From: Ignavibacteria bacterium
GTDB taxonomy: Bacteria > Bacteroidota > Ignavibacteria > Tepidaquicellales > Tepidaquicellaceae
NCBI GenBank assembly: GCA_026417495.1
Contig: JAOADD010000038.1
Coordinates: forward strand, 62,001 to 126,000
Length of the DNA: 64,000 bases
Direction: 5' to 3'
Under the pieces are notes generated by a model. It was not told the origin of the DNA and ran no database searches. It saw only the letters and a list, made by a program, of their open reading frames with translations. Of the stretch, positions 278-55,780 are shown in pieces (position 1 is the stretch's first letter; the number at the start of each line of letters is the position of its first letter). The position numbers and the translations under genes are program-made.

Positions 278-3154
278 TCAGTATCCGTCAATTAACCCCT
301 TTTTTATTGCTGGTATTCCTTTTGCCATCCATTCAGGCATCTCCATTCCCTTTAGATAGTGGTCAAAGAATTGTTTCATACGAATCGATAAGTCCACCCT
401 ATTGGGCCATTTAGTTAAATTGTGTTCCTCTCCATTATATGATAATAACCATGCTTTCTTATTAAGTCGTCTTAATGCATTATAAAACTCTAATCCTTGT
501 TGCCACGGCACAGCCCCGTCATTATCATTACTCATTATCAAAAGTGGAGTAACTATTTTATCTACTTTAAAAAGAGGACTATTTTCGAGATATAAATCCA
601 ATCTTTCCCATAAAGTTGCCCCAATCCTGCTTTGTGCTTGTTCATATTGAAAAATTCTTACTAACCCTGATTCCCATCTAATTCCACCATATGCACTTGT
701 CATATTTACAACAGGTGCTCCTGACATAGCAGCTTTAAACAAATCTGTTCTTGTTACTATATATGCGACCTGATAGCCACCCCAACTCTGCCCTTGCAAT
801 CCAAGATTATTTCTGTCAATATACCCTCTTTCAAGCATAGCGAGAGTGCCACTCATCACTATGTTAAAAGCACTTTCACCTGGATAACCAATTTTATAAG
901 TTAAATCAGGAATAAATATTATGTAACCATTACTGTTATATAAAGGGAAATTTATTACTGAACGACTTGGATTTGGTATATAATGAGTGTGAATTTTGTC
1001 TGTATATTTTTCATAAAAATATACTATCATAGGGTATTTTTTGGTAGAGTCGAGATTTTCTGGTTTATATAACAATCCTTTTTGTTCAGTACCTGTTGAG
1101 TCCAGCCATTTTACTAATTCAACTGTTCCCCATAGATATCTTTGTTGTTGTGGATTTGTGTAAGATAGTTTTTTGAGATTTAAAAAGTCTAAATCACTTA
1201 CCCATAAATCAGGGTACTCGAGATATGATGCTTTCTGCCATATTATAAGCTCGGCATTTCTAGCCTTTATTGGTTTTGTATAATTATTGTCTGTTTCTAT
1301 TAATTTATAAGGTGATTTATTATCATTTAAGTTTACTTTATAGAAACCCTCTTTAAAATTGTCTTCATTTTTATAATACAATAAAATATTACTTGTAGTG
1401 GGAATGTATATTGAGTCTTTATCTAAGTTAATATACCTAAATATTGATTTTGTATTTCTACCATTTGTAATGTTAATGGCACTATTGATATTTTTTGGGT
1501 CTACTTTCCAGATATCATATCTATCATATATAAGTACATTTTCATCATTTAATGTCCATCCGCAGATCCCATATGGTTCAGGTGGACCTGGTGTATCATT
1601 CAATTCATCTGAAAGGTTAATACCTTCAGGAAAAGAGAGTTTTGTAAAAGTACTATTACTAATCGAATAAGTATACCAACTGCTATCTAACTTATTCCAA
1701 TAAATAATATAATTTCCAGTAGGTGATATATCAACTTCATATTGCTGTTTTCGTATAATGAGTGATTTTACACCAGTATTCAAATTAATTAGATAAACAT
1801 CTTTATAGGCAGGGTCTTCCCATGAAACAAGTTTATAATATGGTGAATATGAGAGTCCGATTGCATAATTTGAATTTAAATTTTTTGTATACTTTATTTC
1901 CTGTATTGTTGAATCTGCTACAAATACTAATGAATTTTCATCTATATTGTAAAGTGCATCGTAAGTTTTCTTTTTATCTTTATCCAGCTCTTTAAGTTGC
2001 TGACTTTGGAGTCTATCATCATCTGTACTCCAAATATCAAGTTTGAATTTTTCTTCCTCAAGTAGAGTATCTTTCGGCTGTTGAAAGATTTTGGGAGCAA
2101 TTCCAAAAATTAATCTCTTCCCATTATCAGTAAATTTCGGTTCTTTATATCCACTTATCTCCCAATCAGGTGGTAAAAAGTAACTGTTTGTATCTGCAAT
2201 TTTTTTTGCAATATTGAGGGAAAGTTTTTCTAATTTTATATCTTTTTTCCAATAATACAAACTATATCTTTTTACTTCGCTTGTATCTTTTGTAAATAAA
2301 AACGCTGATTGAATTCCACTTGAATCAAGTGTTATATTCATTACATTTCCTTTTCCCGTAAAAATCTTCTGATTACTTAAATCTGAATAGTTAAAAATGT
2401 ATACTTCGGAATTTATTGATTTATTATCAACTGTGTCATATGATAATTTAACATATCCAATGTTATTACCGTTTTTAGATAATGAAAAATCTGAAATATT
2501 ATTGATATTTAAGATTAATGTGTCTTTTGAAAGATCATATATATTTAAAGTATAAGTATCTTTAACTTTTAATTCTTCTGTTTCTTTTGTTTTTTTCTTT
2601 TTTAATTTTTCTTCCTGTGGTTTTTCTTTTGTTTCGGTTAGATAAACTATAACAGGTTTTGAATTCATATTCTCGGGTATTGAAAATTCTTTAAAATCTG
2701 GGATTTTTATTATTGTATCTATATATTCATTAATTCTAAATTTTCTTAATTTTTTTATACATAATGTATCGGTGGGAAATTCCTCTTTCTTTTTCTTTTC
2801 AAGTTTTAATTTTCTTGTAAGTTCATATGGAGGTTTCAATTTAAAAACTATAAAATCGCTATTAGCAGAATATGTAAGATCATAACCCCTATAAAAAGTG
2901 TCTATTTTATTAGTCTTTAAATTTATATTAACTAAAAACCCATCACCTTTTTGGGGATTTATCTCATAACTTACATAGTTACCCGAAAAATCTATATTTG
3001 GTTTCTCTAATTTGTTCCATTTTTCATATACTGAATGGTCAAGAATTAGTTTTGAAGTAATAGTATCTTTTTCTTGAGAATAAGAAAATCTGATTACAAA
3101 AAACAGAAAAATTAAACAAATTTTAGGAATTGCTTTTACTAAATTAATTTTCAT
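278..3154 (-). CDS. Exported S9-family (prolyl oligopeptidase-like) peptidase
   Basis: A 958-residue protein with a Sec signal peptide at about residues 1-26 (hydrophobic core, likely cleavage after SYS), so it acts in the periplasm or at the cell surface. The long N-terminal part has the weak WD/TolB-like repeats expected of the S9 beta-propeller. The C-terminal alpha/beta-hydrolase domain carries the triad in the right order: Ser790 in GQSWGG, Asp879 in NDNDGAVPW and His911 in GEEHNL. The family cleaves short peptides next to Pro or other small residues, and exact specificity cannot be read. The Lys/Glu-rich stretch at about residues 110-200 is an insertion in the propeller region. It is divergent from a second S9 peptidase at 3218, with 63 bp between the starts. 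Confidence 0.9.
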   Translation of the reverse strand: MKINLVKAIPKICLIFLFFVIRFSYSQEKDTITSKLILDHSVYEKWNKLEKPNIDFSGNYVSYEINPQKGDGFLVNINLKTNKIDTFYRGYDLTYSANSDFIVFKLKPPYELTRKLKLEKKKKEEFPTDTLCIKKLRKFRINEYIDTIIKIPDFKEFSIPENMNSKPVIVYLTETKEKPQEEKLKKKKTKETEELKVKDTYTLNIYDLSKDTLILNINNISDFSLSKNGNNIGYVKLSYDTVDNKSINSEVYIFNYSDLSNQKIFTGKGNVMNITLDSSGIQSAFLFTKDTSEVKRYSLYYWKKDIKLEKLSLNIAKKIADTNSYFLPPDWEISGYKEPKFTDNGKRLIFGIAPKIFQQPKDTLLEEEKFKLDIWSTDDDRLQSQQLKELDKDKKKTYDALYNIDENSLVFVADSTIQEIKYTKNLNSNYAIGLSYSPYYKLVSWEDPAYKDVYLINLNTGVKSLIIRKQQYEVDISPTGNYIIYWNKLDSSWYTYSISNSTFTKLSFPEGINLSDELNDTPGPPEPYGICGWTLNDENVLIYDRYDIWKVDPKNINSAINITNGRNTKSIFRYINLDKDSIYIPTTSNILLYYKNEDNFKEGFYKVNLNDNKSPYKLIETDNNYTKPIKARNAELIIWQKASYLEYPDLWVSDLDFLNLKKLSYTNPQQQRYLWGTVELVKWLDSTGTEQKGLLYKPENLDSTKKYPMIVYFYEKYTDKIHTHYIPNPSRSVINFPLYNSNGYIIFIPDLTYKIGYPGESAFNIVMSGTLAMLERGYIDRNNLGLQGQSWGGYQVAYIVTRTDLFKAAMSGAPVVNMTSAYGGIRWESGLVRIFQYEQAQSRIGATLWERLDLYLENSPLFKVDKIVTPLLIMSNDNDGAVPWQQGLEFYNALRRLNKKAWLLSYNGEEHNLTKWPNRVDLSIRMKQFFDHYLKGMEMPEWMAKGIPAIKKGLIDGY

Positions 3155-3217
3155 ATAACTATGAATTTAATATTTAATTTAAAAGAATTAATTTATAATA
3201 AAGTTTAATTAAATTTA

Positions 3218-5947
3218 ATGAATAAAATGAAAAAATTTATTTTCTCCATAATTGTATTTTTTCTAATAACAGGGTTAAAATTTCAAAATTTAAATCACTT
3301 ACAAATGAAGAAAGACCTTCCCCCAATAATTGATATTGAAGTATTTTTTGGTGACCCAGAAATTTCTGGTGCTCAGATATCACCAGATGGTAAATACATA
3401 TCTTTTAGAAAGCCTTATAATGATGTAATGAACATTTGGGTTAAAGGGATTGATGAACCTTTTGAAAATGCAAAACCTATTACAGCAGAAACTAAAAGGC
3501 CAGTTACAAGTTACTTTTGGAGTAGAGATAGTAAACTTATTTTATATGTTCAAGATTTTGGGGGGGATGAAAATTTTCGTGTATATTCGGTTGACCCAAA
3601 TGGTAAACGAGATGATAAAACAGGTGTTCCTGTACCGAAAGATTTAACACCAATTGAAAAAGTTAGGGTATACATTTTAGGTGTTCCTAAAAATGATCCT
3701 GAGCATATTATTGTTGGTATTAACGATAGAGATCCTCAATATCATGATTTGTATAAAGTTAATATAAAAACAGCAGAAAGGACTCTAATTATTAAAAATG
3801 AAGATAAGGTTTTAGCATATTTAGTAGATGATTTTGGGATTCCAAGAGCAGCATTAAGGCAAAAAGATGATGGAGGAGAGGAATTACTCAAAATTAAAGA
3901 TGGTAAATTAGAAAGAATTTTTGATGTTAATTTTGAAGAGACTATTGATTTTCAGGGATTTTCTGAAGATCCAAATTTTGCATATATAAGTACAAATAAG
4001 GGAGAGAATATTGATTTAACTAGATTGATTAAAATGAACCTTACAAATGGGGAATACGAAATAATTGAGTCTGACCCTGAAAATGAAGTTGATTTTGGTG
4101 GAGTAATGTTATCAGAGAAAACTCATAAACCAATTGTTACATTTTACATTTCTGATTATGTAAGATATTACTTTAAAGATAAACAATGGGAAGAATCTAT
4201 AAATAATGCATTAGATAAATTACCCAAAGGACAATGGTCAATCACAAGTATGACAGAAGATGAATCTAAGATAATAATTTATATTTCAAGAGATGTTGAT
4301 CCAGGAAGTGCATATTTATATGATAGAATTACAGGTGAATTAAAATTTCTATATAAATCACGACCAAATTTACCTACCGAGTATTTAGCAGAAATGAAAC
4401 CATTGAAATACAAAGCTCGAGATGGATTAACAATACCTGCATATTTAGTGACTCCATTAGGTGTTGAACCGAAAAATTTACCAACAGTAATTTTTCCTCA
4501 TGGAGGTCCATGGGCAAGAGATGTATGGGGATATAATGCCTTTGCTCAGTTTCTTGCTAATAGAGGATATGCTGTGTTAATACCGAATTTTAGAGGTTCA
4601 ACAGGATATGGTAAAAGATTTCTTAATCTTGGTAATAAGCAATGGGGGACTGGTACGATGCAACATGACATTACTGATGGTGTATCATATTTAATTGAAA
4701 ATGGAATTTCTGATCCCAAACGAGTTGCAATTATGGGAGGGTCTTATGGTGGTTATGCAACACTTGCTGGATTAGCATTTACTCCTGATTTATACGCTGC
4801 TGGAGTTTCTATAGTTGGACCATCAAATTTATTAACACTAATCAAATCTATACCACCTTATTGGGTGCCAATGATGAAAATTTTCGATATTAGAGTTGGT
4901 AGTTTAAATAATCCTGATGATGTTGAAAGATTGAAAAAACAATCACCACTTTTTTATGCACAAAACATTAAAGCTCCTTTGTTAGTAATTCAGGGAGCAA
5001 ATGACCCAAGAGTGAAACAAGCAGAATCTGATCAAATTGTCGCTACCTTAAGAGATTTGGGAAGGCAGGTAGAATACTTACTCGCTAAAGATGAAGGCCA
5101 TGGATTTTTAGGAAAACTCAACCGACTTGCTATGATTGCTAAAATTGATAAATTCCTTGAATTGCATTTAGGGGGAAGAAGTCAAGAAAAATATTCACCT
5201 CAAATTCAGAATAAATTAGATGAGCTTGTAGTTGATATAAAAACTGTAAAATTACCTGAAAATACTGAGATAGAGATTGAACTTGCAAAAAAATCTTCTC
5301 TCCCTATTATTCAGAAGGAAAAATTTTCAGAAGGTAAATTTAATTATAACTTGTCAACCAAAATAATGGGGCAAGACTTCAAGTTTAGTCTTGAGAGAAC
5401 AATTAAAATAAATTCAGATAACAAACCTGAAATTGTTGACTTAACTATAATGCCTATGGGACAAGTAACTGTTATATATAGTTTAGATAAGGAAAATCTT
5501 TTACCAATTACAGTAATTACAAAACAGGGGAATTCAGAAATTTCAAGTTTAAATTTCTTATCTGATAAAATTACAGGATATACCCAGACAAATAATCTTA
5601 AGAATGATGTTAACTTAAACATAGAAAAACCAGTAATGTGTGATGGAGGATATCTTGATGTTATACTTGGGCTAATTAAATATGGCGATAAACCGATATA
5701 TTTAACTGTCTATAATTCTTCTACAAATTCACTTAAATATCTGAAAGCTGAATTCATCATTAATGAAGATGTAGTTATTGAAGATCGAACTTATAGATGT
5801 GTAAAAATACAATTAACAAACCTTGAGGATAATTCAAAAGAATTTTATTGGTATAATGAATTAAATCCAATACAACTGGTTAGAAGTGAAACTAAACTAC
5901 CTGCTGAACTTGGTGGTGGAATTTTAACAACTGAGTTGAAAAAGTGA
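3218..5947 (+). CDS. S9-family peptidase with C-terminal extension
   Basis: A 909-residue protein with a hydrophobic N-terminal segment (signal peptide or anchor); ATG 3218 and ATG 3227 are both possible starts. Residues about 30-400 form the beta-propeller and about 410-660 the hydrolase, with Ser509 in GGSYGGY, Asp596 in GANDPRV and His628 in DEGHGF. This is the acylaminoacyl/dipeptidyl peptidase branch of S9. Most such enzymes end about 20 residues after the His region, but here some 240 further residues follow (about 665-909). They look beta-rich, end near TKLPAELGGGILTTELKK, and may be a separate ligand-binding domain I do not recognise. The oppositely oriented S9 gene at 278-3154 suggests a paired role in peptide scavenging. 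Confidence 0.9.
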   Translation: MNKMKKFIFSIIVFFLITGLKFQNLNHLQMKKDLPPIIDIEVFFGDPEISGAQISPDGKYISFRKPYNDVMNIWVKGIDEPFENAKPITAETKRPVTSYFWSRDSKLILYVQDFGGDENFRVYSVDPNGKRDDKTGVPVPKDLTPIEKVRVYILGVPKNDPEHIIVGINDRDPQYHDLYKVNIKTAERTLIIKNEDKVLAYLVDDFGIPRAALRQKDDGGEELLKIKDGKLERIFDVNFEETIDFQGFSEDPNFAYISTNKGENIDLTRLIKMNLTNGEYEIIESDPENEVDFGGVMLSEKTHKPIVTFYISDYVRYYFKDKQWEESINNALDKLPKGQWSITSMTEDESKIIIYISRDVDPGSAYLYDRITGELKFLYKSRPNLPTEYLAEMKPLKYKARDGLTIPAYLVTPLGVEPKNLPTVIFPHGGPWARDVWGYNAFAQFLANRGYAVLIPNFRGSTGYGKRFLNLGNKQWGTGTMQHDITDGVSYLIENGISDPKRVAIMGGSYGGYATLAGLAFTPDLYAAGVSIVGPSNLLTLIKSIPPYWVPMMKIFDIRVGSLNNPDDVERLKKQSPLFYAQNIKAPLLVIQGANDPRVKQAESDQIVATLRDLGRQVEYLLAKDEGHGFLGKLNRLAMIAKIDKFLELHLGGRSQEKYSPQIQNKLDELVVDIKTVKLPENTEIEIELAKKSSLPIIQKEKFSEGKFNYNLSTKIMGQDFKFSLERTIKINSDNKPEIVDLTIMPMGQVTVIYSLDKENLLPITVITKQGNSEISSLNFLSDKITGYTQTNNLKNDVNLNIEKPVMCDGGYLDVILGLIKYGDKPIYLTVYNSSTNSLKYLKAEFIINEDVVIEDRTYRCVKIQLTNLEDNSKEFYWYNELNPIQLVRSETKLPAELGGGILTTELKK

Positions 5948-34369: not shown

Positions 34370-34540
34370 ATACGAGTAATTTATATTTTGAATTTAGATT
34401 TATGATTATAACTTAAATTAAGAAATTTTTGTTTAAAAAAAACCACACTTATTTTTTTACTTTATTTGTTACTATTAAGACAGATTTTTAATAATAAAAT
34501 GGTTAATTTTCAATCAATTTATTTTAAACAATTTATTATT

Positions 34541-37015
34541 ATGAAATACATTTTTTCTTTAATCATTTGCTTAGTAATGCCACTTATGGTATTTGCTCAA
34601 GTAGATTTGCCTGATTATAGTAAATTAAAATCTATTGTTATACCACCTCCTGGATATCAAGTCACTCCTGATGGTGTTCAATCAATTCCAAAAATAATAA
34701 ATGGTTTTGATAATATGTTTTTGGGTGTTGATTATGGAGAACCATATATTGCTACAAATCCAAACGACCCACTAAATGCTGTTTGTGCTTTTAATATTAA
34801 TAACCTTTATTATACTATTGATGGATTTAATTGGACGAAAAACACACCATCCTTCCCTGGATATGGTGTTCTTGGTGATCCTGTTCTTGCTTATGACAGT
34901 TTAGGTAATGTTTATTATGCTACTTTGTATCAAAATGGTTCTATATATGGAATTGCCATTGTTAAATCTTCCAATAAGGGTATAAGCTGGTCAGCTCCAA
35001 TAAGTGTATATTCTACAACTGTTGGGCTTGCTGATAAAGAATGGATTGCAGCAGATCAAACTGCAGGTCCGTATTCAAACTATTTGTATGCTGCATGGAG
35101 ACAATTTGGAACATCTGGAATGAGATTTACAAGAAGTTCTGACGGTGGTAATACTTGGTCTACTCCAGTTACTCTTACCGGCGACCAGGGCGCATATATC
35201 GCTATAGGACCTAATAATAATATCTCAGGTGGAAGTGTTTATTTTGCTTGTGCTTTGGGTAATTACATTGCAGTTTATAGGTCTACAAATGGAGGGCTAA
35301 CTTTTGGTGCTTATGTACTTGCGACCCCGTATTTTATCGGTCCTGGTACTGTTTGCTATGGTAGATATACAGTAAAAAATTGTATTAGAACTGATAATTT
35401 CCCGAGAATGGCGGTTGATAACAGTTATACATCTACTCGTGGAAATGTGTATGTTGTTTATGCTGCAAACCCTAATATTGGAGCGGATAAAGCAAATATA
35501 TACCTTGTTCGTTCAACTAATTATGGTGCAAATTGGTCTTCACCAATTAAAGTAAATGATGATAATACTACGACTGATCAATGGATGCCAGCGATTTCAG
35601 TAGATAAATCTGGTAGAGTTTTTGTTACATGGTATGACTCCAGAATAGATACTACTGCTAATATAATGACAATGCTTTATGGCGCTGTTTCTACAAATGG
35701 GGGAGTATCATTTCAACCGAACCAACCAATATCTAATGCACCATTTAATCCAAACAATATGGCGGTAGGTAGTTCTGGAGATGCTAAATATATTGGTGAT
35801 TACATTGGTAATAATCCTACAGGTAATACATGTTGGCATGTTTGGATGGATGGAAGAGAAAATAATCTTGGGAGTTATGTAGGTTATTATCCTGATTTTG
35901 GATTAATTACTAATCCAAATACAATTTTTATTGGTAATAATGATAGTACGAATATTCTTATAAAAGTACCTGCTATCAAGGGTCCTTTCAATGATAGAGT
36001 TAAATTTACAGTGACTTTGGATTCATTACCAACTTCCGGGACAATTAGCCTTACCTATCTTAATGGGAAAGATTCCATAACAAATTTCCCCGATTCAACT
36101 TATTTAAAGGTTAAAACTATTGGAAATGTAACTACACGATTGTATAAACTTACAATTTCTGGTGCAGGTAAAAATGGTACACCTGTTCATAAAAGAGTTA
36201 TTGATTTGTATGTAAATCTTTCTACTTTATCCGTTGGTACTAATAGGGAACCCATAGTTGACTTCAAAGTAAATGGTATTCAATATAATACTCGTCAACA
36301 ATTTATAGTCCCCACAAATACAATAATGAATGTTCAGGCACTTAGTCCAAAAATTGCAGGCGGTTCACAGTTTGTTTTCTTAAACTGGTCGGATAATGGA
36401 GATACTACTCATAATGTTACCGTTAATGGGAATATATTCCTAACTGCATTCTATAAAGTTCAATATAAAATTGTTGTGATATCATCAATTGGTAATGCAT
36501 TCGGTAATAATACTTATGTAGACTCTGCAGGTAATGGAACATTTGGAGTTTATTCAAAATTCTATATGTACAATAATCAGTTATATCAATTTAGAGGTTG
36601 GACTGGTTCAGGTAATAATTCTTATACATCACCCGATAGTACAGGTAATGATACTGTTGTAACAATACCAATTTATAATCCTATTGTTGAGACTGCAAGA
36701 TGGACACCCGTTGTTGGTATAAGTCAGGTTGGAAATGAAATACCTAACGAGTATAAGCTTTATCAAAATTATCCTAACCCTTTCAATCCGTCTACAACAA
36801 TTGATTATGACTTAAAAGAAAATTCTGATGTTAGATTGATATTATATGATGTTATGGGTAGAGAACTTTTTGTATTGATTAACGAAAGGCAACCGGCAGG
36901 TAAGTATAAATATAATTTAGATATGACAGTCTATAATCTATCAAGCGGAATTTATTTTTATAAAATTCAAGCTAACAAATTTTCTGATATAAAGAGATTG
37001 GTCTTTATTAAGTAA
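34541..37015 (+). CDS. T9SS-secreted sialidase-like (BNR) repeat protein
   Basis: An 824-residue protein from ATG 34541, where a clear signal peptide starts (cleavage near VFAQ). Residues about 55-450 have repeated Asp-box-like motifs typical of sialidase/neuraminidase propellers: SSNKGISWSAP, SSDGGNTWSTP, STNGGLTFG, STNYGANWSSP and STNGGVSF. Catalytic sialidase residues cannot be confirmed. A region at about 620-735 (FLNWSDNGDTTHNVTVNGN, then FRGWTGSG) resembles divergent InlB B-type repeats. The end is a T9SS sorting domain with LYQNYPNPFNPSTTI, LYDVMGRE and LSSGIYFYKI. It should be a cell-surface or released protein. Confidence 0.88.
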   Translation: MKYIFSLIICLVMPLMVFAQVDLPDYSKLKSIVIPPPGYQVTPDGVQSIPKIINGFDNMFLGVDYGEPYIATNPNDPLNAVCAFNINNLYYTIDGFNWTKNTPSFPGYGVLGDPVLAYDSLGNVYYATLYQNGSIYGIAIVKSSNKGISWSAPISVYSTTVGLADKEWIAADQTAGPYSNYLYAAWRQFGTSGMRFTRSSDGGNTWSTPVTLTGDQGAYIAIGPNNNISGGSVYFACALGNYIAVYRSTNGGLTFGAYVLATPYFIGPGTVCYGRYTVKNCIRTDNFPRMAVDNSYTSTRGNVYVVYAANPNIGADKANIYLVRSTNYGANWSSPIKVNDDNTTTDQWMPAISVDKSGRVFVTWYDSRIDTTANIMTMLYGAVSTNGGVSFQPNQPISNAPFNPNNMAVGSSGDAKYIGDYIGNNPTGNTCWHVWMDGRENNLGSYVGYYPDFGLITNPNTIFIGNNDSTNILIKVPAIKGPFNDRVKFTVTLDSLPTSGTISLTYLNGKDSITNFPDSTYLKVKTIGNVTTRLYKLTISGAGKNGTPVHKRVIDLYVNLSTLSVGTNREPIVDFKVNGIQYNTRQQFIVPTNTIMNVQALSPKIAGGSQFVFLNWSDNGDTTHNVTVNGNIFLTAFYKVQYKIVVISSIGNAFGNNTYVDSAGNGTFGVYSKFYMYNNQLYQFRGWTGSGNNSYTSPDSTGNDTVVTIPIYNPIVETARWTPVVGISQVGNEIPNEYKLYQNYPNPFNPSTTIDYDLKENSDVRLILYDVMGRELFVLINERQPAGKYKYNLDMTVYNLSSGIYFYKIQANKFSDIKRLVFIK

Positions 37016-37127: not shown

Positions 37128-37156
37128 TTGACAAATTAAAATTTTCTTTTTATAAT
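37128..37156 (+). promoter_or_regulatory. Perfect sigma70-type consensus promoter
   Basis: TTGACA (37128-37133), a 17-bp spacer and TATAAT (37151-37156) match the consensus at all twelve positions. The expected transcription start, seven bases after the -10, is the A of the ATG at 37163, so the mRNA would have little or no leader. Confidence 0.8.
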
Positions 37157-37162
37157 TCACCG

Positions 37163-37867
37163 ATGAAAGATGTTATCATATCGGTGATAAAAGAGGGTGA
37201 GCGTTCTCATAAATTGAGTGAATTAATTGATTTCTGTCAAAAAATTGCAGTTACTACTATTAATGTATCTAAGTATAGAAATTTTATTATAGAAAAAAGC
37301 GGGCTATCAATTAATGATTTAGCAATTGATGTAATTGCAGATTTATTCGCTTGTGAAAAGGGGAAATATAAATTTATTGATTCTTGTTTGAAAAGAATTA
37401 TTGATAGTAAATCAGAAGATGAAATTTTAGCAAAATTATATGCGCTTGTTATTGCCAGAACAAATCAAAGGATTGTTGAATTAAGAGAAGAGTGTGGTGA
37501 ATTATATTTTAAAATAAAAAAGGCTGTCAAACTTTTTTTAAATAGGTGTAATGACTATAAAAAAGTTTTTTATAAATCAACCTGTTATATTTATTCTTGT
37601 GAGCTTAGTAAACTGAACCCAAGGTTAAAAGAGATTCCAATTGAAGAATTATTGCAGCTTCTTTTTTCTTTAAAGTTTGAAAAGTTATCCGTAGCATCAA
37701 TAACAAGTAAGGCTCTTGAAATTGTAAATTCTCAGAAAAAATATTTACGGGCTATTAGTGAGTTCAATTTATACTTTGTTATTTCAGAGTTTTATAAATG
37801 TAGACTGCGAGATCACTTGAAAGATATGGAAAATGTACACTATATAGATATAGAGGTTGAAATATGA
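37163..37867 (+). CDS. Unknown soluble protein, possibly sigma-factor-like
   Basis: A 234-residue helical, soluble protein with no signal or membrane segment. I do not recognise it with certainty. The segment DLAIDVIADLF (about 52-62), followed at about 95-110 by a LVIARTNQRIVELREE stretch, recalls region 2 of extracytoplasmic-function sigma factors (DLxQEVFLxLF ... ARNxxxDxxR). The C-terminal part (about 155-215) could hold a helix-turn-helix (LSVASITSKALEIV) but is not a clear region 4. It is first in a tight three-gene operon whose second gene looks anti-sigma-like and overlaps it by 4 bp (ATGA). Sigma function is a hypothesis only. Confidence 0.6.
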   Translation: MKDVIISVIKEGERSHKLSELIDFCQKIAVTTINVSKYRNFIIEKSGLSINDLAIDVIADLFACEKGKYKFIDSCLKRIIDSKSEDEILAKLYALVIARTNQRIVELREECGELYFKIKKAVKLFLNRCNDYKKVFYKSTCYIYSCELSKLNPRLKEIPIEELLQLLFSLKFEKLSVASITSKALEIVNSQKKYLRAISEFNLYFVISEFYKCRLRDHLKDMENVHYIDIEVEI

Positions 37868-38373
37868 AATTGATTACAGACGAAATATTACATCTTTATT
37901 TTATTAATCCTGATTTATTAGATAAGGATACTCTTAAAGAAATTAAGGAGTATCTTTTAACAGATGAAGATTTCATTAATCGCTATAGAGAAATAGAGAA
38001 ATTTCACAAAATTTTCCGTGAGATTAACTCATCAGAAAAATTTATAACTCTTTATCCATTTCAATATGAAAAAACTAATAATATTAGACTAGCAGCAGCT
38101 CATATAAAAGAAAAAAAGAATGAGTTTCGATATTATACTTCTTTCATTTCTGCTGACAATGTGGTTATACTTAGAGTTCAGAAAAATGATTTAACAAATC
38201 AATATAAATTAAATTTAATAACAGATATACCTGTTGATTTTAAAAAAGTAAGGATAAATATTGGAGGATATGGAAAAGATATAATACCTGATGATTATGG
38301 GGTTGCAATTATAAATGATTTTGAAATAGACATCGATACAAATATACATATAAATCTCGGTTTAGAAAATTAA
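37864..38373 (+). CDS. Unknown protein, possibly anti-sigma-like
   Basis: A 169-residue soluble protein. Its N-terminal 55 residues (ITDEILHLYFINPDLLDKDT, then a helix with DEDFINRYREIEKF) have the helical pattern of anti-sigma-factor N-termini but lack the His-Cys-Cys zinc ligands. The C-terminal 90 residues look like a beta sandwich (RYYTSFISADNVVILRVQ, NLITDIPVDFKKVRINIGG). No membrane helix. It overlaps the upstream gene by 4 bp and ends 6 bp before the Lon-like membrane protein, so the three are cotranscribed and probably made in fixed ratio. Confidence 0.6.
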   Translation: MKLITDEILHLYFINPDLLDKDTLKEIKEYLLTDEDFINRYREIEKFHKIFREINSSEKFITLYPFQYEKTNNIRLAAAHIKEKKNEFRYYTSFISADNVVILRVQKNDLTNQYKLNLITDIPVDFKKVRINIGGYGKDIIPDDYGVAIINDFEIDIDTNIHINLGLEN

Positions 38374-38379
38374 TGATTA

Positions 38380-40509
38380 ATGAAATCTCACCTGCTTGAA
38401 GTTGAGAATTATTTTATTCATTTAATTGATCTTTTAAGGACTCAAGCTTCAAATGGTTTTAAATTAACAGCCATTTATGAATTTCTCAATATTCTTCTAT
38501 TAAGGAAAGATTATTCAAAATTTGTTTCCTACTATTCAGATTTAGCACCATATATAGAATATATTATAAATGAAGCAAAATTTGAGGGGTTATCACCTAT
38601 TTTCTTAACAGATTATCAACTAATAATTGATAAGTTATCTATATTCGATCTATTCAAGAACAAAATTGAACTACTTAAAATTCTTGAAGAGGGTAAAAAA
38701 AATATTTTTAATCCAATTGAGAAAGACTTATTATACAACTGTATCCCTATCATTCTCATTGAAGAAAATAGTAATCAAGGGTTTAGGTTAAATCCCAAGT
38801 TTGCAGTTATAAAAAAACTTTATATACATACTACCCTTGCTGATAAAGAGCAGAATGAAGATAAAATTGAATTTAAAAATATCATTGATTTGAGGGAAAC
38901 AGGTATAATCGATTGCTTAAAAGATTCTATTAAAAAAGTTAAAGTACTATGTAATCAGAAAGGAATAAAAGTTCACAATTATAATTTCACATTCTATTTT
39001 GATAGTGATCAATACATATATACGGGTTCGTCCCTTCAGTTAGCTGCTACATCTCTGGCATTTAATTCTATATTATTAACAGAATTAAATAATCAGTACT
39101 ATAAATTTAGGAATGATTGTGTAATGACGGGAGCTTTAGATGATGATGGTAATGTAATGAAAATGGATACGGATATATTGGAGCTGAAAATAAAAGGAGT
39201 GTTTTTTTCAGGTTATTCTAAAATGATTTTGCCTGAAGATAATTTTGCTGATGCTATTGAGATTTTGAAAAGTATGAAAAATATATATCCTGAAAAGAAT
39301 CTTGAAATCATACCTATTAAAAAAGCTGATAATATATTTACAAATTTAGAAATTGTTGAAAGATTTGATTTAAAAATTTTAGAAAAATTAAAAGCTAGAT
39401 ATAAAAAATATAATGTTGCTGTTAATTGGGTTTTAAGTTTATTACTTATCATTTTTATCTTACTTGCAACAGTTGACTATGTAATTCCAAGACTTGATAG
39501 AAATCCTATTGAATATAATTATTTGGATAATCATTATTCCATTTTTAACAAATATGGAATTGAAATTTGGAGGTCAAAGATTTTAAGCGATATTAATCGT
39601 GAATACTATTATGATCAGCTATGCCCAAATAGTCGTTGTTTATTAACCGATGTAGATAGTAATAACATTAATGAATTAATTTATCTTGTAAGGGATTATA
39701 ATGATAATGATGAAAGTAGAAGTATTTTTTGTTCAAATCCCGAGATAAAACTCTTTCCATTCTTATTGCCAATTAGAACACTAAACTACCCCAATGATCC
39801 TATAGATAATTATAACTATTATATAAAAGGTATCGTATTGATAGATTGTAATGCTGATAATAGAGAAGATATCCTATTTTGGGGTTTAAATTCAAAATAT
39901 TATCCTGGTATAATTGGTGCTATTGACTTCAATGGTAATATTATCGCAGAATATTGGAATGAAGGACATACAACAATTGTTAAAGTGTTCGATATTGATG
40001 GTTATGGTAATAAAGAGATTTTTGTTGGGGGATGTAATAATAGAGATTCTATTGAGTGTGCTGCATTAATTGTTTTTAATCCTTATTATATTTCTGGTAG
40101 CAGTCCTTATACGAATCCATTATCCAATAATAAAAAAGGATTAGAAAAATATTATATTATATTTCCAAAATCCATTATACTTAAATATACAAGGAGAGAA
40201 AGAAATAACGTTCAGAATATAAACTATAATATCAATAATACAATCTCATGCTGGACTTTTGAGGGTGAGATATCAGAAGATTTGTCTATCTGTTACCAAT
40301 TTGACAAAGATTTAAATTTACTTAGAGTTGACTGCAATGATAAATTTAAGAATGCATATGAAAAATTAATAAAAGAGAAAAATTTAGACCTTCCAGATAT
40401 ACAAACCTACCTAAATAATTTAAAATCAGAAGTTAAATGGTGGAATGGTGATTATTTCTCCAAAAATCCATCAACAAATAGACATTATTTAGAAGCAATA
40501 AATAGATAA
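38380..40509 (+). CDS. Membrane protein: degenerate Lon-like domain plus extracytoplasmic FG-GAP-like region
   Basis: A 709-residue protein. Residues 1-175 are helical and of unknown type. Residues about 178-330 resemble the Lon (S16) proteolytic domain: a helix with GIIDCLKDSIKKVKVLC, then GSSLQLAATSLAF where Ser218 matches the Lon catalytic Ser, VMTGALDDDGNV matching the Lon MTGExxxxGxV strand, and SKMILPEDN matching TVLIP. The catalytic Lys position is Ile266 and its GG pair is Asp263-Thr264, so proteolysis is improbable. One membrane helix (about 347-367) with Lys/Arg before it places the rest outside. The outer part has Asp-rich loops at 424, 489 and 538 (DVDSNNINE, DCNADNRED, DIDGYGNKE) like Ca2+ loops of FG-GAP/VCBS propellers. 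Confidence 0.75.
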   Translation: MKSHLLEVENYFIHLIDLLRTQASNGFKLTAIYEFLNILLLRKDYSKFVSYYSDLAPYIEYIINEAKFEGLSPIFLTDYQLIIDKLSIFDLFKNKIELLKILEEGKKNIFNPIEKDLLYNCIPIILIEENSNQGFRLNPKFAVIKKLYIHTTLADKEQNEDKIEFKNIIDLRETGIIDCLKDSIKKVKVLCNQKGIKVHNYNFTFYFDSDQYIYTGSSLQLAATSLAFNSILLTELNNQYYKFRNDCVMTGALDDDGNVMKMDTDILELKIKGVFFSGYSKMILPEDNFADAIEILKSMKNIYPEKNLEIIPIKKADNIFTNLEIVERFDLKILEKLKARYKKYNVAVNWVLSLLLIIFILLATVDYVIPRLDRNPIEYNYLDNHYSIFNKYGIEIWRSKILSDINREYYYDQLCPNSRCLLTDVDSNNINELIYLVRDYNDNDESRSIFCSNPEIKLFPFLLPIRTLNYPNDPIDNYNYYIKGIVLIDCNADNREDILFWGLNSKYYPGIIGAIDFNGNIIAEYWNEGHTTIVKVFDIDGYGNKEIFVGGCNNRDSIECAALIVFNPYYISGSSPYTNPLSNNKKGLEKYYIIFPKSIILKYTRRERNNVQNINYNINNTISCWTFEGEISEDLSICYQFDKDLNLLRVDCNDKFKNAYEKLIKEKNLDLPDIQTYLNNLKSEVKWWNGDYFSKNPSTNRHYLEAINR

Positions 40510-40837: not shown

Positions 40838-41230
40838 TTGAGAAAATCAAATCACATTAAGGTTTTTAAAGCTAAAGATTTGCATACTTATTCGAGTGAA
40901 GCAAAAATAAGGAAAAATGTTCACTATTCAAAAGATATTATCAATTTATTGAAAAAACAAAAGTTCGATATTGTAATATTTGATTTCAAATTGAATCTCA
41001 AAGATAGTTTAAGCTTTTTGAACGAATTAAAATTTGCTGAAATTAAAGCTAAGATAATTATTTTTACAAACTTTGGTAAAAGAAAAGATTCATTACTCAT
41101 AAGAAAAAAAGATAAACCATTTTTAATGATGGTTGAAAAAATTCCAAAAGATTTGATAAAGGAAGCTATATATAGATTGAAAGAGTCCAATTGTAAAAAA
41201 ATGACGAAAGGATTAATAAAAGTTTTTTAA
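40838..41230 (+). CDS. Possible degenerate response-regulator receiver domain
   Basis: A 130-residue protein from TTG 40838 with no ATG alternative nearby. Its alternating strand/helix pattern resembles a CheY-like fold. FDIVIFDFKLNLKDSLSFL has an Asp where receivers are phosphorylated, KIIIFTNFG matches the Thr strand, and a Lys occurs in MVEKIP. The acidic pair expected near the N-terminus is missing, so phosphorylation may not occur. No output domain or partner kinase is present. It lies 18 bp after the candidate RNA and is followed by a strong terminator. Confidence 0.45.
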   Translation: MRKSNHIKVFKAKDLHTYSSEAKIRKNVHYSKDIINLLKKQKFDIVIFDFKLNLKDSLSFLNELKFAEIKAKIIIFTNFGKRKDSLLIRKKDKPFLMMVEKIPKDLIKEAIYRLKESNCKKMTKGLIKVF

Positions 41231-49537: not shown

Positions 49538-52500
49538 ATGAAAAAAAGTACTATTTTTATAATTTTTATTATATTAAGCACAATACTAATAGCTGAAAAT
49601 CTATATTCCCAAACAATTCGTACTGTAGGAGGTGCAGGTGCAAATTATGCTAATTTAAAAGCAGCATTTGACGCTATAAATAATGGTTCTTTAACTGGCA
49701 ATATTATTCTACAATTAACAGGTAGTACAACAGAAACAAATGCTATTACTTTGAATGCTAGCGGTAGTGGTGGTGCAAATTATTCATCAATAACTATATA
49801 TCCTACAGTCTCAAATGTCATTATAAGTGGTGATTTGAATACTAATCTTATATATTTAAATGGTGCTGATAATGTTACTTTTGATGGTAGAATAAATCAA
49901 TCTGGTAGTGAAAAAAGTTTAACAATACAAAATACAAGTACAGGTGCTTCAGCTACTACTTTTAGGTTAATTAATTCAGCTGAAAATAATACTATAAAGT
50001 ATTGTATAATCAAAGGTTCGGGGACAAATTCGTCTCTAGGGATTATTACTATTTCAACTGCTAATACAGGAAATGGAAATGATAATAATACAATTACATA
50101 TAATGACATCACATCAAGTTCTGCTGGTAGACCAAGGTATGCAATTTTTTCTGCTGGAACTGCAGAAAGAGATAATGATAACAATATTATCTCGTATAAT
50201 AATATATATGATTGTTTTAATACTGGTGGTCACTCTTATGCGATATTTATAAGTTCATATTCTAATAACTATACTATATCAAATAATAGTATATATGAAA
50301 CAACTAATTTTGCACCATCTGGTAGTTATAATTACAATGGTATAAGAGTGTCGACGAATAGTAATCATACAGTAATTAGTAATTATGTGGGTGGTACACA
50401 GCCAAATTGTGGTGGAAGTGCTATGATTTTTAATGCAAATTATCCACATTATTTTTGTGGTATTTTTATTTCAGGTGGTTCTACAGGTGCTTCATTAGTT
50501 CAATATAATATAATAAAAAATATTAATTACACTAGCACTCAAGCAAATCCGTTTGATGGTATTTTTATTAATTCTGGTAATGTTAATGTTTATAATAATA
50601 CTATAGGTTCAACAAGTGAAAATAATTCTATTGTTATAAATACTCCCTGTGCATCTGCTTCGGCTACTATTACAAATGGTGTAGTAACCTCTATAACTTT
50701 AATTGGTGGTGGTAGTGGTTATACCACAGCACCTGTTATTACCTTTTCTGGTACTTGTACAGATTCAGCAAAAGCAGTTGCAAATATCAGCAATGGAGTT
50801 GTAACAAGTATTACATTATTGAGTGGTGGTTCAGGTTATACATCAACACCATTTGTATTATTTGATGGTGCTACATATTCTACAACACATGGTATTATTC
50901 AAAACAGTGGTGGTACTGTAAATATTAATAATAATAATATTAGTGGTATTACCACAGTTGGTTCAACTTACTATTCTCATGGCTTCGAAGGTATTTATGT
51001 TAGAAGTGGTGGTGGTATCACTAATATTACTAATAATCTAATTGGTAGTTTAAATACAACAAATAGTATTTATGTTTCATCAACAGCACAAAATTCTCTG
51101 CAAAAACAAGACATATACGGAATATATAGTGCGAGTACTAATACAACAACTATTTCTGGTAATACTATAGCTAATCTTACAAATAATTACTCTGGTAACT
51201 CCGCAGCTGCAAGAGCAAGGGGAATTCAAACAAGTGCTGGTATTAATACAATAACAAATAATTTGGTTAGAGATATAAGAACAAGTAGTGGTCAAACATC
51301 AATAAAATCAGCTGCATCTTTAATAGGTATATCTCAAACAATAAACAGTGGAACTCAAACCGTAACGGGGAACACTGTTTACAATTTATATAATTTAAAC
51401 ACAACAGCAAGATATGATATATATGGTATTTATTTTATTGCTCCAAATTCTGGTGTAAATACTGTTGCTAACAATTTTATTCACAGTATATATCCTTCAT
51501 CTAGTAATACAGGAACTGAAATAGAAGGAATTTTTCTTAATGGTGGTTCTATTTATTGTTACAATAATATTATTTCTCTTGGGAATAGCATTTCAAGAGG
51601 CTATGAAATTAATGGGATTTGGGATGAAAATGGTTCTGGTTCCAGTAGTTATATTTATTTCAATACAGTTTATATTGGTGGTACTGTTACCTCTGGAACA
51701 ACTTCCTATACTGCTTGTATTTGGAGCAATAATAGTGGAACTATAAGAAATTTCAGAAATAATATTTTTGCTAATTCTAGAACTGGAGGTTCATCAGGAT
51801 ATCATTTATCCATTTATCTTAATAATATAACAAATTTAACTATTGATTATAATGACTATTATAATGCTGCTGGTACCCTTGGTAGAATAGGTGCTAACCC
51901 TAGAAACAATTTATCGACCTGGAGAAATGGAACAGGACAGGATAACAATAGCACTGATATAAATCCTAGTTTTGCAAATCCTACAGGAACTACACCTGAT
52001 GATTTCCTTGCATCAGCAAGTTTACCTGCAGTAACGGGAACTGGAATTACAACAGATTATAAAGGAAATGCAAGAGCACCAGTCCCTCAAATGGGAGCAT
52101 TAGAATCAACTATTGAATATGTATGGCAAGGGAATACAAGTAGCAATTTTGGTACTGCAAGCAATTGGACAAATAATATGGTTCCTCCTGATGGGGCAAA
52201 TATAAGATTTGCAACTTCTCCTGCAAACGATTGTGTTTTAGACCAAAATAGAGTTCTTGGGAAAATTACTAATTCACAATCTGCAAAAAAACTTGTCGTA
52301 AATGGTAAACAACTCACTATAACGAAAGAACTTGATTTCACTAATAATGCTCAAATAGATGCTACTGCAAGTAACTCTACAGTTGTATTCGGTGGTACCT
52401 CTACTCAAGTAATTCCTTCAGGTGCATTTACCAATAATACATTAAATAATTTAACTATCAATAATAATTATGGTGTTGCTATAAATAATAGTCTAACAAT

Positions 52501-55500
52501 AAATCAAATGTTAATTTTGACTTCAGGTAATCTATCAATTGGGAGTAATACTTTAACATTGAATGGTATTGTTTCTGTATTTAATGGTGGGTTTACAGGT
52601 GGTAACAATTCCAATATAATATTTAGTGGCAGTGGCACAGCATATTTACCATCAGTAACACTAAATAATTTGACTATTAACAGAACGGATGGAGTAATAA
52701 TGATTGGAAATGTAACTGTGAATGGTACTTTGACTTTAACAAACGGTACTCTAACAGTTGGAAATAATAACACACTAACCATAAATTCTATTTCGGTTTC
52801 AAATGGTAAAATAAATGCTAATGGTGATTCTGCTACCGTAGTTTTCAATAACTCTTCTGCTATTACTTTACCTAATGAGTTCTTTACTTCTTCATCAATA
52901 TTTAATTTAACAATCAATGGTTCTGGTGGTATCACTTATCAGGGATATTTAACAGTTAATGGTATATTAAATTTAGCAGCAAATAATCCATCTTCTACCC
53001 AAGGTATTCTTCATATGCATAATGGAAGTTTATCGACAACCTTAACTATGGGTGCAAATGCAGTAACGTTAGGTGTAGGTGATGTAACAGGTATTGTTAA
53101 AAGAAATTACTTTATTGCAAATAAGGAATATACATTTGGCAATCAGTTTACAAAAATATGTTTCTTACCAGGTGGTACATATCCAGATAGTATTGTTGTT
53201 AAAATTTTAATTGGTAATCCTCCTATTTGGAAATCAAATGCAATAAAAAGAATGTATGACTTTGTCCAAAGAGGAGGAAGTAATTGTATTGCTACTATTA
53301 CTACCCATTATTTAGATGATGAGCTAAATGGAAATCCTGAACAAGATTTAGTCCAATGGACTTGTTATGCTGATAGTGTTCCCCCGAAAGTTTATGAATG
53401 GGGACGTTCGAACCTTAATACTGAAAATAATTGGATTGAAATTGATAATATTAATATTGGTTATTTCCCTACAAGATTCGGGCAATTAGAGAATACATTG
53501 GCTAAATCGTCTTTGTCTTATTATACCTGGAAAGGTACGCAGAGTACTAACTGGAACACTCCTGAGAATTGGGACCCAGTTGGTAGGCCAAATGAAACAT
53601 CTAATATTATTATTCCTGATGCTGCAAATACTAATTATGACCCAGTAATTCCAAATGGAACTGAAATTAAAACTATAACTCTACAAAGTGGTAGTATCCT
53701 CAATACAGAAGCTAATGCACAGATTACTATTAATGGTGGTTTAGGTGCTTGGGTTAATCTTGGTGGAACTTTTAACCCTAGTACAAGCAATTTAATTTTT
53801 ACAAATAGAAATGCTACAATGAGTGGAGAAAATGATGTCTATAATCTTACTATTGGTAGCGGTGATACACTTTGGATGGCAGAAAATAGTGTAATTAGAA
53901 TATATGGTAGTGTATACAATAATGGTGTATGGAGAACAGTAATTAGTGGACATACAACAGTGGAATATTGCGGTGGTACTCAAACAGTAGTTGTACCAAA
54001 TCCTTCAACAAATAGATATTCGCACTTGATTTTAAGTGGAAGTGGTACAAAAACATTACCAAGTTCTGCTCTAAATATTTATTGTGATTTAGTTATAACT
54101 GGTACTACTACTGTCAATACTAATTCTTCACTCACTATTGGTGGTGATTTAATAGTAGATGAAGGTGCTACTTTTAATGCTGGTAATTTTAACCATACAA
54201 TATTTGGTAATTTTCAAAATTATGGAACGGTTAACCTTCCTGCTGGTTATACAATAACTATGAAAAGCGATACAGCTCGATACATTGATGGTATTTCACC
54301 AATAAATTTTGCTAATTTAACATTAGATAATGCTGTAAATGTAACAATATATGGTGATGTATACATAAATAATCAACTTACTATTTCTAGAGGTTACCTG
54401 TATTTAGGTGTTCCAAGTGATAAGAATGAAAATCCTTTATTGAGGAATAATAAATATCTTGTAATGAATCCTTTAAGTGCCTCTTTAAACGTTTATCTGA
54501 AACTTAAAGGGGGTATTAGTACCACTTCAAATTCGAAAATTAATGCAACCTCTAAATATTCAACAATTGAATTCAATGGAAGCTCAACTCAAATAATACC
54601 AGATGGGCTTTTTATAGATAACGAAGTAAATAATTTAAAGATTAATAATAGTTCTGGTGTAAATATGGAAGGTAATTTAAAAATTAATGGTGAATTAATC
54701 TTGAACTCTGGAATATTAAATACTCAATCCAACAGTATAATTTTTGATGTAGATGCTATTGACCCTGTTGAGACTTCATCAAGCAGAATAGTTGGAACTG
54801 CTAAAATATTAAATGTTCCTGTTGGGACTGGTTCTTTCTCTTTCTTAAGTATGGATATTTCTAATGGAATGGATGACCTTGGAAATGTTTCTATAACAAG
54901 AAAAACAGGACCTTCTGCTGTAATTATTGTTGGACAATATTCAAGTATTGCTTCGCATTGGAAAGTAGAGTCGGATTATCCACCAACTAATGGTAGAACT
55001 ATCACATATAAATGGTTATCAGTTTTGGATAATGGTAAGAATTTTTCAGCTATTAACAAAGCTCAAACTTGGTATAGTACAGATGATGGAAATAGTTGGG
55101 TTGCTTATGGAGATGAAATAGATGTTTCTAATTCAAATCCAAGAATTATGAATGTTACAACAACTCATTTCTCTTATTGGGTTGCATCAGATAAGGAGGG
55201 ACCATTACCTGTTGTTTTAAATTCATTTAATTCAGAGGTTAAAGGAAGGAATGTAAAATTAACTTGGATTACTGAAAATGAAACAAATAATTCTGGTTTT
55301 GAAATAGAGAGAAAATCTAATGAAGATAGTTGGACTAAAGTTGGATATATGCCTGGTAAAGGTACGACTAATAAGAACAATTACTACATTTTTGAAGATA
55401 AAAATCTAAATACAGGTAGATATAAATATAGATTAAAGCAAATAGATATTTATGGCAATTATAATTATTTTGACTTGAAAAATGAAATCGTAATACTTCC

Positions 55501-55780
55501 ACCGACTAAATTTGAACTTGGACAGAATTATCCAAATCCATTTAATCCAAGAACTAAAATAGATTTTCAAATCCCATATGAAAGCAGAGTTAACCTGATT
55601 GTTTATGATATACTTGGAAGGGAAGTGAAGAAATTAATTTCAGAAAATTTGAAAGCAGGATATTATACAATTGATTTCAATGCATCAGAACTTTCAAGTG
55701 GAATATATTTCTATAGAATCGTTGCTATCTCAGGGAAAAAAGAATTTATTGATACTAAGAAAATGCTTGTTATTAAATAA
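49538..55780 (+). CDS. Giant T9SS-secreted beta-helix surface protein
   Basis: A 2080-residue protein with a signal peptide (about 1-24, cleavage near LYSQ). Residues about 25-830 are a right-handed beta-helix made of Asn/Ser/Thr/Gly-rich coils with NNTI and NNII-type turns. A tandem 39-residue repeat sits at 375-452. From about 860 and again near 1328, modules open with YVWQGNTSSNFG and YYTWKGTQSTNWN and lead into further beta-rich repeats (TLNNLTINR-like). Residues about 1880-1980 look like a fibronectin-type domain (VKLTWITENETNNSGFEIER). The end is a T9SS sorting domain with NYPNPFNPRTKI and LSSGIYFYRI. Probably an adhesin or surface-layer filament; no enzyme site is seen. Confidence 0.88.
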   Translation: MKKSTIFIIFIILSTILIAENLYSQTIRTVGGAGANYANLKAAFDAINNGSLTGNIILQLTGSTTETNAITLNASGSGGANYSSITIYPTVSNVIISGDLNTNLIYLNGADNVTFDGRINQSGSEKSLTIQNTSTGASATTFRLINSAENNTIKYCIIKGSGTNSSLGIITISTANTGNGNDNNTITYNDITSSSAGRPRYAIFSAGTAERDNDNNIISYNNIYDCFNTGGHSYAIFISSYSNNYTISNNSIYETTNFAPSGSYNYNGIRVSTNSNHTVISNYVGGTQPNCGGSAMIFNANYPHYFCGIFISGGSTGASLVQYNIIKNINYTSTQANPFDGIFINSGNVNVYNNTIGSTSENNSIVINTPCASASATITNGVVTSITLIGGGSGYTTAPVITFSGTCTDSAKAVANISNGVVTSITLLSGGSGYTSTPFVLFDGATYSTTHGIIQNSGGTVNINNNNISGITTVGSTYYSHGFEGIYVRSGGGITNITNNLIGSLNTTNSIYVSSTAQNSLQKQDIYGIYSASTNTTTISGNTIANLTNNYSGNSAAARARGIQTSAGINTITNNLVRDIRTSSGQTSIKSAASLIGISQTINSGTQTVTGNTVYNLYNLNTTARYDIYGIYFIAPNSGVNTVANNFIHSIYPSSSNTGTEIEGIFLNGGSIYCYNNIISLGNSISRGYEINGIWDENGSGSSSYIYFNTVYIGGTVTSGTTSYTACIWSNNSGTIRNFRNNIFANSRTGGSSGYHLSIYLNNITNLTIDYNDYYNAAGTLGRIGANPRNNLSTWRNGTGQDNNSTDINPSFANPTGTTPDDFLASASLPAVTGTGITTDYKGNARAPVPQMGALESTIEYVWQGNTSSNFGTASNWTNNMVPPDGANIRFATSPANDCVLDQNRVLGKITNSQSAKKLVVNGKQLTITKELDFTNNAQIDATASNSTVVFGGTSTQVIPSGAFTNNTLNNLTINNNYGVAINNSLTINQMLILTSGNLSIGSNTLTLNGIVSVFNGGFTGGNNSNIIFSGSGTAYLPSVTLNNLTINRTDGVIMIGNVTVNGTLTLTNGTLTVGNNNTLTINSISVSNGKINANGDSATVVFNNSSAITLPNEFFTSSSIFNLTINGSGGITYQGYLTVNGILNLAANNPSSTQGILHMHNGSLSTTLTMGANAVTLGVGDVTGIVKRNYFIANKEYTFGNQFTKICFLPGGTYPDSIVVKILIGNPPIWKSNAIKRMYDFVQRGGSNCIATITTHYLDDELNGNPEQDLVQWTCYADSVPPKVYEWGRSNLNTENNWIEIDNINIGYFPTRFGQLENTLAKSSLSYYTWKGTQSTNWNTPENWDPVGRPNETSNIIIPDAANTNYDPVIPNGTEIKTITLQSGSILNTEANAQITINGGLGAWVNLGGTFNPSTSNLIFTNRNATMSGENDVYNLTIGSGDTLWMAENSVIRIYGSVYNNGVWRTVISGHTTVEYCGGTQTVVVPNPSTNRYSHLILSGSGTKTLPSSALNIYCDLVITGTTTVNTNSSLTIGGDLIVDEGATFNAGNFNHTIFGNFQNYGTVNLPAGYTITMKSDTARYIDGISPINFANLTLDNAVNVTIYGDVYINNQLTISRGYLYLGVPSDKNENPLLRNNKYLVMNPLSASLNVYLKLKGGISTTSNSKINATSKYSTIEFNGSSTQIIPDGLFIDNEVNNLKINNSSGVNMEGNLKINGELILNSGILNTQSNSIIFDVDAIDPVETSSSRIVGTAKILNVPVGTGSFSFLSMDISNGMDDLGNVSITRKTGPSAVIIVGQYSSIASHWKVESDYPPTNGRTITYKWLSVLDNGKNFSAINKAQTWYSTDDGNSWVAYGDEIDVSNSNPRIMNVTTTHFSYWVASDKEGPLPVVLNSFNSEVKGRNVKLTWITENETNNSGFEIERKSNEDSWTKVGYMPGKGTTNKNNYYIFEDKNLNTGRYKYRLKQIDIYGNYNYFDLKNEIVILPPTKFELGQNYPNPFNPRTKIDFQIPYESRVNLIVYDILGREVKKLISENLKAGYYTIDFNASELSSGIYFYRIVAISGKKEFIDTKKMLVIK
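50660..50893 (+). repeat. Tandem 39-residue repeat in the giant T9SS protein
   Basis: Two consecutive 117-bp units encode related segments, NGVVTSITLIGGGSGYTTAP and NGVVTSITLLSGGSGYTSTP. The protein repeat is much better conserved than the DNA, which points to an old duplication kept by selection. The unit interrupts the surrounding beta-helix. Confidence 0.75.

Follow-up and report, generated by a model that had tools for sequence, protein, structure and literature searches.

Protease-controlled signaling through sigma and anti-sigma factors is known from several systems. In a type III CRISPR system, the Lon protease CalpL cuts the anti-sigma factor CalpT, thus freeing CalpS (PMC11417357), which is an ECF sigma factor. 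In a second CRISPR-associated system, Csx29 cuts Csx30, the inhibitor of CASP-sigma (PMC10028731). In the present study, we analyzed a locus from an Ignavibacteria bacterium, located in a stretch of 64,000 nucleotides (hereafter, the window), in which a Lon peptidase, an anti-sigma protein, and a sigma-like gene are likewise found together, as in CalpL/CalpT/CalpS. The logic that we propose is also that of CalpL, in that an activated Lon peptidase would cut the anti-sigma protein. The preliminary description of the locus had stated that no system with this layout was known, and we found no published description in the literature searched. In particular, a search that combined FG-GAP with either anti-sigma factors or ECF sigma factors, with most subscription journals outside its scope, returned no paper.

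The locus contains three genes, A, B, and C, all on the forward strand, as are the promoter and the domains, residues, and motifs given below for these genes. Gene A (37163..37867) encodes a helical regulator of 234 amino acids, a probable divergent sigma-like factor whose sigma identity did not reach significance in searches. Gene B (37864..38373) encodes a soluble protein of 169 amino acids that has no membrane helix and is anti-sigma-like by family assignment. Gene C (38380..40509) encodes a membrane protein of 709 amino acids that resembles a receptor protease. The open reading frame coordinates confirmed the tight three-gene operon noted earlier, with a 4-bp overlap between A and B and a 6-bp gap between B and C. 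A sigma-70-type promoter (TTGACA-17-TATAAT; 37128..37156) matches the consensus at 12/12 positions. Since its -10 element ends 6 nt upstream of the ATG of A, a leaderless mRNA is implied. The claim of a single promoter was upheld to the extent that a perfect site is present; however, the match is suggestive only, since the operon region is AT-rich and contains 38 promoter-like sites when about 32 are expected.

The neighborhood of the operon was also inspected. Directly upstream (34466-37015) is a gene for a BNR-repeat protein with a type IX secretion sorting tail, a possible target of the module. Downstream (40838-41230) is a short, degenerate response-regulator receiver domain of 130 amino acids without an output domain. 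Elsewhere in the window (49538-55780), a 2080-amino-acid protein is encoded whose type IX secretion sorting tail is the sole part recognized by Pfam.

Protein C is predicted from hydropathy and flank charge to cross the membrane once, with its N-terminus inside. The transmembrane helix was placed at 39418..39486; its hydrophobic stretch (amino acids 351-369) has a 19-residue hydropathy of 2.7, and its cytoplasmic flank has a net charge of +4. The predicted outer sensor region (39505..40299) contains three Asp-rich, Ca-loop-like motifs at amino acids 424, 489, and 538. While the window's own C gave no Pfam FG-GAP match, FG-GAP_3 was above the cut-off in relatives (E 8.1e-9 in locus L037 and E 4.6e-10 in locus L125, which has the two-gene form described below), and the FG-GAP regions of these relatives align to the outer part of the window's C. 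The sensor also carries a C-terminal WWNGDYF motif (40438..40458) that is conserved as W-[DN]-G-x-x-F in the relatives. The hydropathy, the loops, and the Pfam matches in relatives bore out the earlier reading of one membrane helix followed by an outer FG-GAP region. The Asp-rich loops fit structural Ca2+ loops of the kind usual in FG-GAP repeats and do not demonstrate the Ca2+-related sensing that had also been suggested for the outer region. In some relatives of C, the outer part is LamG/ASH-like instead of FG-GAP; the sensor can thus be exchanged, with the Lon part being retained.

We then analyzed protein B. Its N-terminal region (37864..38043) was identified as a putative zinc anti-sigma (ZAS)-like domain by alignment with its relatives. 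Used alone, the window's B gave no clear match in profile searches. When a family profile of the N-terminus that included the window's B was used, the best PDB match was the anti-sigma factor RsiW (E 9.8e-6). Among 25 single members of the family, 12 matched zf-HC2, 14 matched RsrA, and 3 matched ChrR, and the pattern H..HxxxCxxC is visible in the alignment of the B relatives. Such an HHCC arrangement has been described for ChrR-type ZAS proteins (PMC5358783; PMC4598750). On this sequence evidence, the B family belongs to the ZAS family, and the anti-sigma identity first suggested for B is supported through its relatives. The window's B, like the relatives nearest to it, no longer has any of the four zinc ligands (H->L, H->Y, C->D, and C->F). 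The loss does not exclude function, since zinc-free anti-sigma domains such as that of RseA are known (PMC5358783, PMC4598750).

Many relatives of the module have a two-gene form, in which A is followed by a single protein of about 480 amino acids. In this protein, a ZAS domain is joined to the membrane helix and FG-GAP sensor known from C, and no Lon domain is present. The membrane helix is present in 18/18 of these B fusions and in 0/26 stand-alone B proteins; the zinc motif is present in all 18 fusions and in 8/26 of the stand-alone proteins examined. Either the anti-sigma protein or the protease is tied to the outer sensor. The fusion of the sensor with the ZAS domain suggested that the target of the sensor is the anti-sigma protein, reached either directly or via the protease. 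No other observation argues as strongly as the two-gene form for an action of the outer sensor and of the Lon domain of C on B.

The identity of protein A was less readily established. The AlphaFold2 model of A is confident (pLDDT 91.6) and consists of helices and one beta hairpin, and the order of its first helices resembles that of sigma region 2. The helix at amino acids 50-62 (37310..37348), with near-invariant D52, D56, and F62, resembles sigma region 2.2 (DLAIDVIADLF in A and DLVQEVFLRLW in the sigma region), with the D-x3-D motif being near-invariant. The window's A is shorter than most of its relatives, lacking their C-terminal 100 or so amino acids, and a sigma-4-like part may consequently be missing from it. 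Profile comparison recognized S16 in C, the anti-sigma family in B relatives, and FG-GAP in relatives of C, but no sigma family in A: neither profile searches of 54 members, nor hhalign, nor Foldseek gave a significant sigma match. An alignment of 90 A sequences compared with ECF sigma factors by hhalign gave P 0.15. In ungapped profile-profile windows of A against sigma factors, the sigma-2.2 register appeared, but shuffled and reversed controls equaled or beat the match. Foldseek searches returned nothing below E 0.2 for the window's A against the PDB and nothing below E 0.6 for a full-length A relative against the PDB and viral models. Sigma factors nevertheless recurred among the weak matches, making up 5 of the 31 best Foldseek matches of the full-length relative, all weak, and 3 of 15 weak NCBIfam matches over two scans of A members. 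Thus, of the sigma-like assignment given to A in the preliminary description, what stands is a set of weak but coherent hints.

ZAS domains are anti-sigma domains, and sigma genes usually sit directly upstream of them. On this genomic context, A is quite likely a highly divergent sigma factor. A less likely explanation, and one that we take seriously, is that A is a transcription or signaling regulator of a new, non-sigma fold that is held by B, with C still being the receptor protease. Such a regulator would be favored by the fact that profile searches, hhalign, and Foldseek all failed to give a significant sigma match even though the model reaches a pLDDT of 91.6, whereas the position of A directly before an anti-sigma domain, the helix order and D-x3-D motif, and the recurrence of weak sigma matches all argue for a sigma factor.

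To characterize the cytoplasmic part of C, we used a profile built from 16 relatives. The profile matches the LonB protease of A. fulgidus (E 9e-7), with a conserved serine and a conserved lysine in register with the Ser-Lys pair of LonB. Pfam Lon_C matched at E 6e-4 in one member (L140), at E 0.014 in another (L037), and only at E 0.21 for the window's C alone. Based on these matches, C carries an S16 (Lon) peptidase domain at about amino acids 125-335 (38752..39384), as the preliminary description had surmised. The predicted catalytic residues, Ser218 (39031..39033) and Lys270 (39187..39189), align with the catalytic serine and lysine of LonB and are kept in 55/55 distinct Lon regions with identities down to 13%. 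A chance match of C to Lon was considered and rejected on the E value of 9e-7 and the invariant dyad. Since no AAA+ ATPase match was found in C or in the relatives scanned, C contains an S16 peptidase domain without being a Lon protease in the strict sense (LonA/LonB). A separate, ordinary Lon of 823 amino acids is encoded elsewhere in the genome.

It was proposed in the preliminary description that the Lon-like part binds a protein. The invariance of the Ser-Lys dyad in 55/55 relatives led us to change binding to cutting: the Lon domain of C should cut and not merely bind. In an improbable alternative, the domain has no catalytic activity and serves as a platform for B or A, with the bound protein being let go upon a change in conformation. 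The two-gene relatives, which work with the same sensor and no protease, indicate that a conformational mechanism is feasible, but a Ser218 and Lys270 pair unchanged in such divergent proteins is hard to explain without catalysis.

The distribution of the module was then examined, and the loci were annotated with a hidden Markov profile for each of the three genes. A genome scan with the window's C as a single protein found no relatives, while an alignment-based scan with C yielded 34 loci. C-like proteins were found in 17 of 59 related genomes in the search of relatives. In a larger sample of 294 genomes of the class, the C profile, which also detects the two-gene form, had matches in 86, and gene A was present in 108. 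The named relatives are from Ignavibacteria, other Bacteroidetes bins, a Chlorobiaceae bin, and Aminicenantes and KSB1 bins.

The three genes largely remain together in these relatives, as had been expected. By profile placement, nearly all intact three-gene loci have the order A-B-C. B or a B fusion follows A directly in 48 of the 54 loci in which A is not cut by a contig edge, and in most loci C comes immediately after B. The trio is likewise kept together in further Ignavibacteria and in classes elsewhere in the phylum, and it is complete in a genome from KSB1 (L251), indicating that the arrangement is not due to chance.

In a few genomes, C is located away from A-B or occurs in tandem copies (L178, L192, L194, L196, and L197), and in one lineage (L193-L197) A and B remain adjacent with C elsewhere. 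Such genomes could suggest that the substrate of C is an unrelated envelope or membrane protein, which C would degrade or mature, and that C belongs to the operon only because regulation is shared. We consider this very doubtful, since C immediately follows B in most loci and, in the two-gene relatives, the sensor and the B domain form one fused protein.

Additional copies of the genes were also observed. At some loci (L178, L194, and L117), two or three paralogues of C stand in tandem next to a single A-B pair, as if several sensors fed one regulator. Some genomes have multiple A paralogues, with up to 7 A matches in one (G520) and 3 in another (G519); several paralogues per genome are common for sigma/anti-sigma systems. 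At two loci (L182 and L253), extra A-like genes are found beside proteins of 117-124 amino acids (e.g., L253:10862-11218) that are unlike any module described here. Outside the window, contig C62 of genome G000 (2022-2888; L002) carries a broken second Lon-like copy of C that has internal stop codons and is closer to the LamG type; no adjoining A partner was found for it in the G000 genome.

We also searched for links to CRISPR defense. Profile searches and PADLOC gave no SAVED or CARF match in C. In the genome scan for type III CRISPR signatures, no Cmr2 was found, and Csm1 was matched only weakly and partially, below the cut-off, on another contig (C73 of G000, 3075-3365; L257), where a 557-amino-acid frame resembles the first 100 positions of Csm1/Cas10 at the N-terminus. 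That the module is an anti-phage defense effector related to CRISPR-associated Lon proteases is highly improbable, since the functional parallel to CalpL/CalpT/CalpS (PMC11417357) and a weak PADLOC match of one C relative to CARF_LON (E 0.024) stand against the lack of any PADLOC match for the window's A, B, and C, of any above-cut-off type III signature in the genome, and of CRISPR-like repeats near the operon, and against a sensor that is outside the cell and of the FG-GAP or LamG type, not CARF/SAVED.

The mechanism that we favor starts from what was observed by computation: the operon and its synteny, the S16 domain with its conserved dyad, the topology of C, the FG-GAP region, and the ZAS membership of the B family. 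From these we infer that A is a sigma factor, that B binds A, that C cleaves B, and that a signal activates C. C would be a single-pass receptor protease in a trans-envelope signaling module. Its outer FG-GAP region would sense an envelope or surface ligand, and sensing would control the cytoplasmic, ATP-independent S16 (Lon) Ser-Lys peptidase. The soluble anti-sigma-like B would hold A and is the most likely substrate of C; on balance, we expect that C cleaves or inactivates B and so frees A, which would then redirect RNA polymerase. More tentatively, C may found a class of single-pass receptor proteases in which an outer FG-GAP/LamG sensor gates a cytoplasmic Lon-type peptidase directly, controlling a new sigma family, invisible to present profiles, via proteolysis of a soluble ZAS protein.

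If this is true, the module would represent an undescribed route from an outside signal to gene expression, with C as the protease counterpart of a receptor kinase, and the Lon/anti-sigma/sigma circuit of CRISPR defense would exist in a general, envelope-sensing version as well. The natural exchange of a sensor fused to an anti-sigma domain for one joined to Lon would offer a ready-made comparison with which signal transmission could be tested. A may also add a transcription factor family, present in over a third of the class genomes sampled, that has been overlooked by current annotation.

What is new in the locus, compared with the known protease-controlled systems, is the receptor architecture and a regulator of an unrecognized family. 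In many members of the B family, the N-terminal H..HxxxCxxC pattern is that of ChrR/RsrA-type ZAS proteins, with HHCC as in ChrR; however, the window's B is without all four ligands, and the C-terminal part is different. C resembles archaeal LonB of A. fulgidus in its S16 fold, as judged by profile, and in the register of its Ser-Lys dyad, but it has no AAA+ domain, and its peptidase is N-terminal of a membrane helix to which an outer sensor is attached. Unlike CalpL, C is membrane-anchored and has an outer FG-GAP or LamG sensor in place of the SAVED domain; unlike in the CalpL/CalpT/CalpS system as a whole, no CRISPR is involved, B is of the ZAS type, and A is not recognizable as an ECF factor. 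Csx29/Csx30/CASP-sigma, in which CASP-sigma is an ECF sigma factor, is a similar triad of a protease, an anti-sigma inhibitor, and a sigma or sigma-like factor; however, that system uses a Cas7-11-linked CHAT protease, is activated through a CRISPR RNA complex, and is cytoplasmic without a trans-membrane sensor. As in the regulated intramembrane proteolysis of RsiW/PrsW/RasP and RseA/DegS/RseP, an outside signal would lead to proteolysis of an anti-sigma protein. While the anti-sigma factor of the RsiW and RseA systems is itself a membrane-spanning protein that separate proteases cut, B is soluble, and a single protein, C, is predicted to be both sensor and protease.
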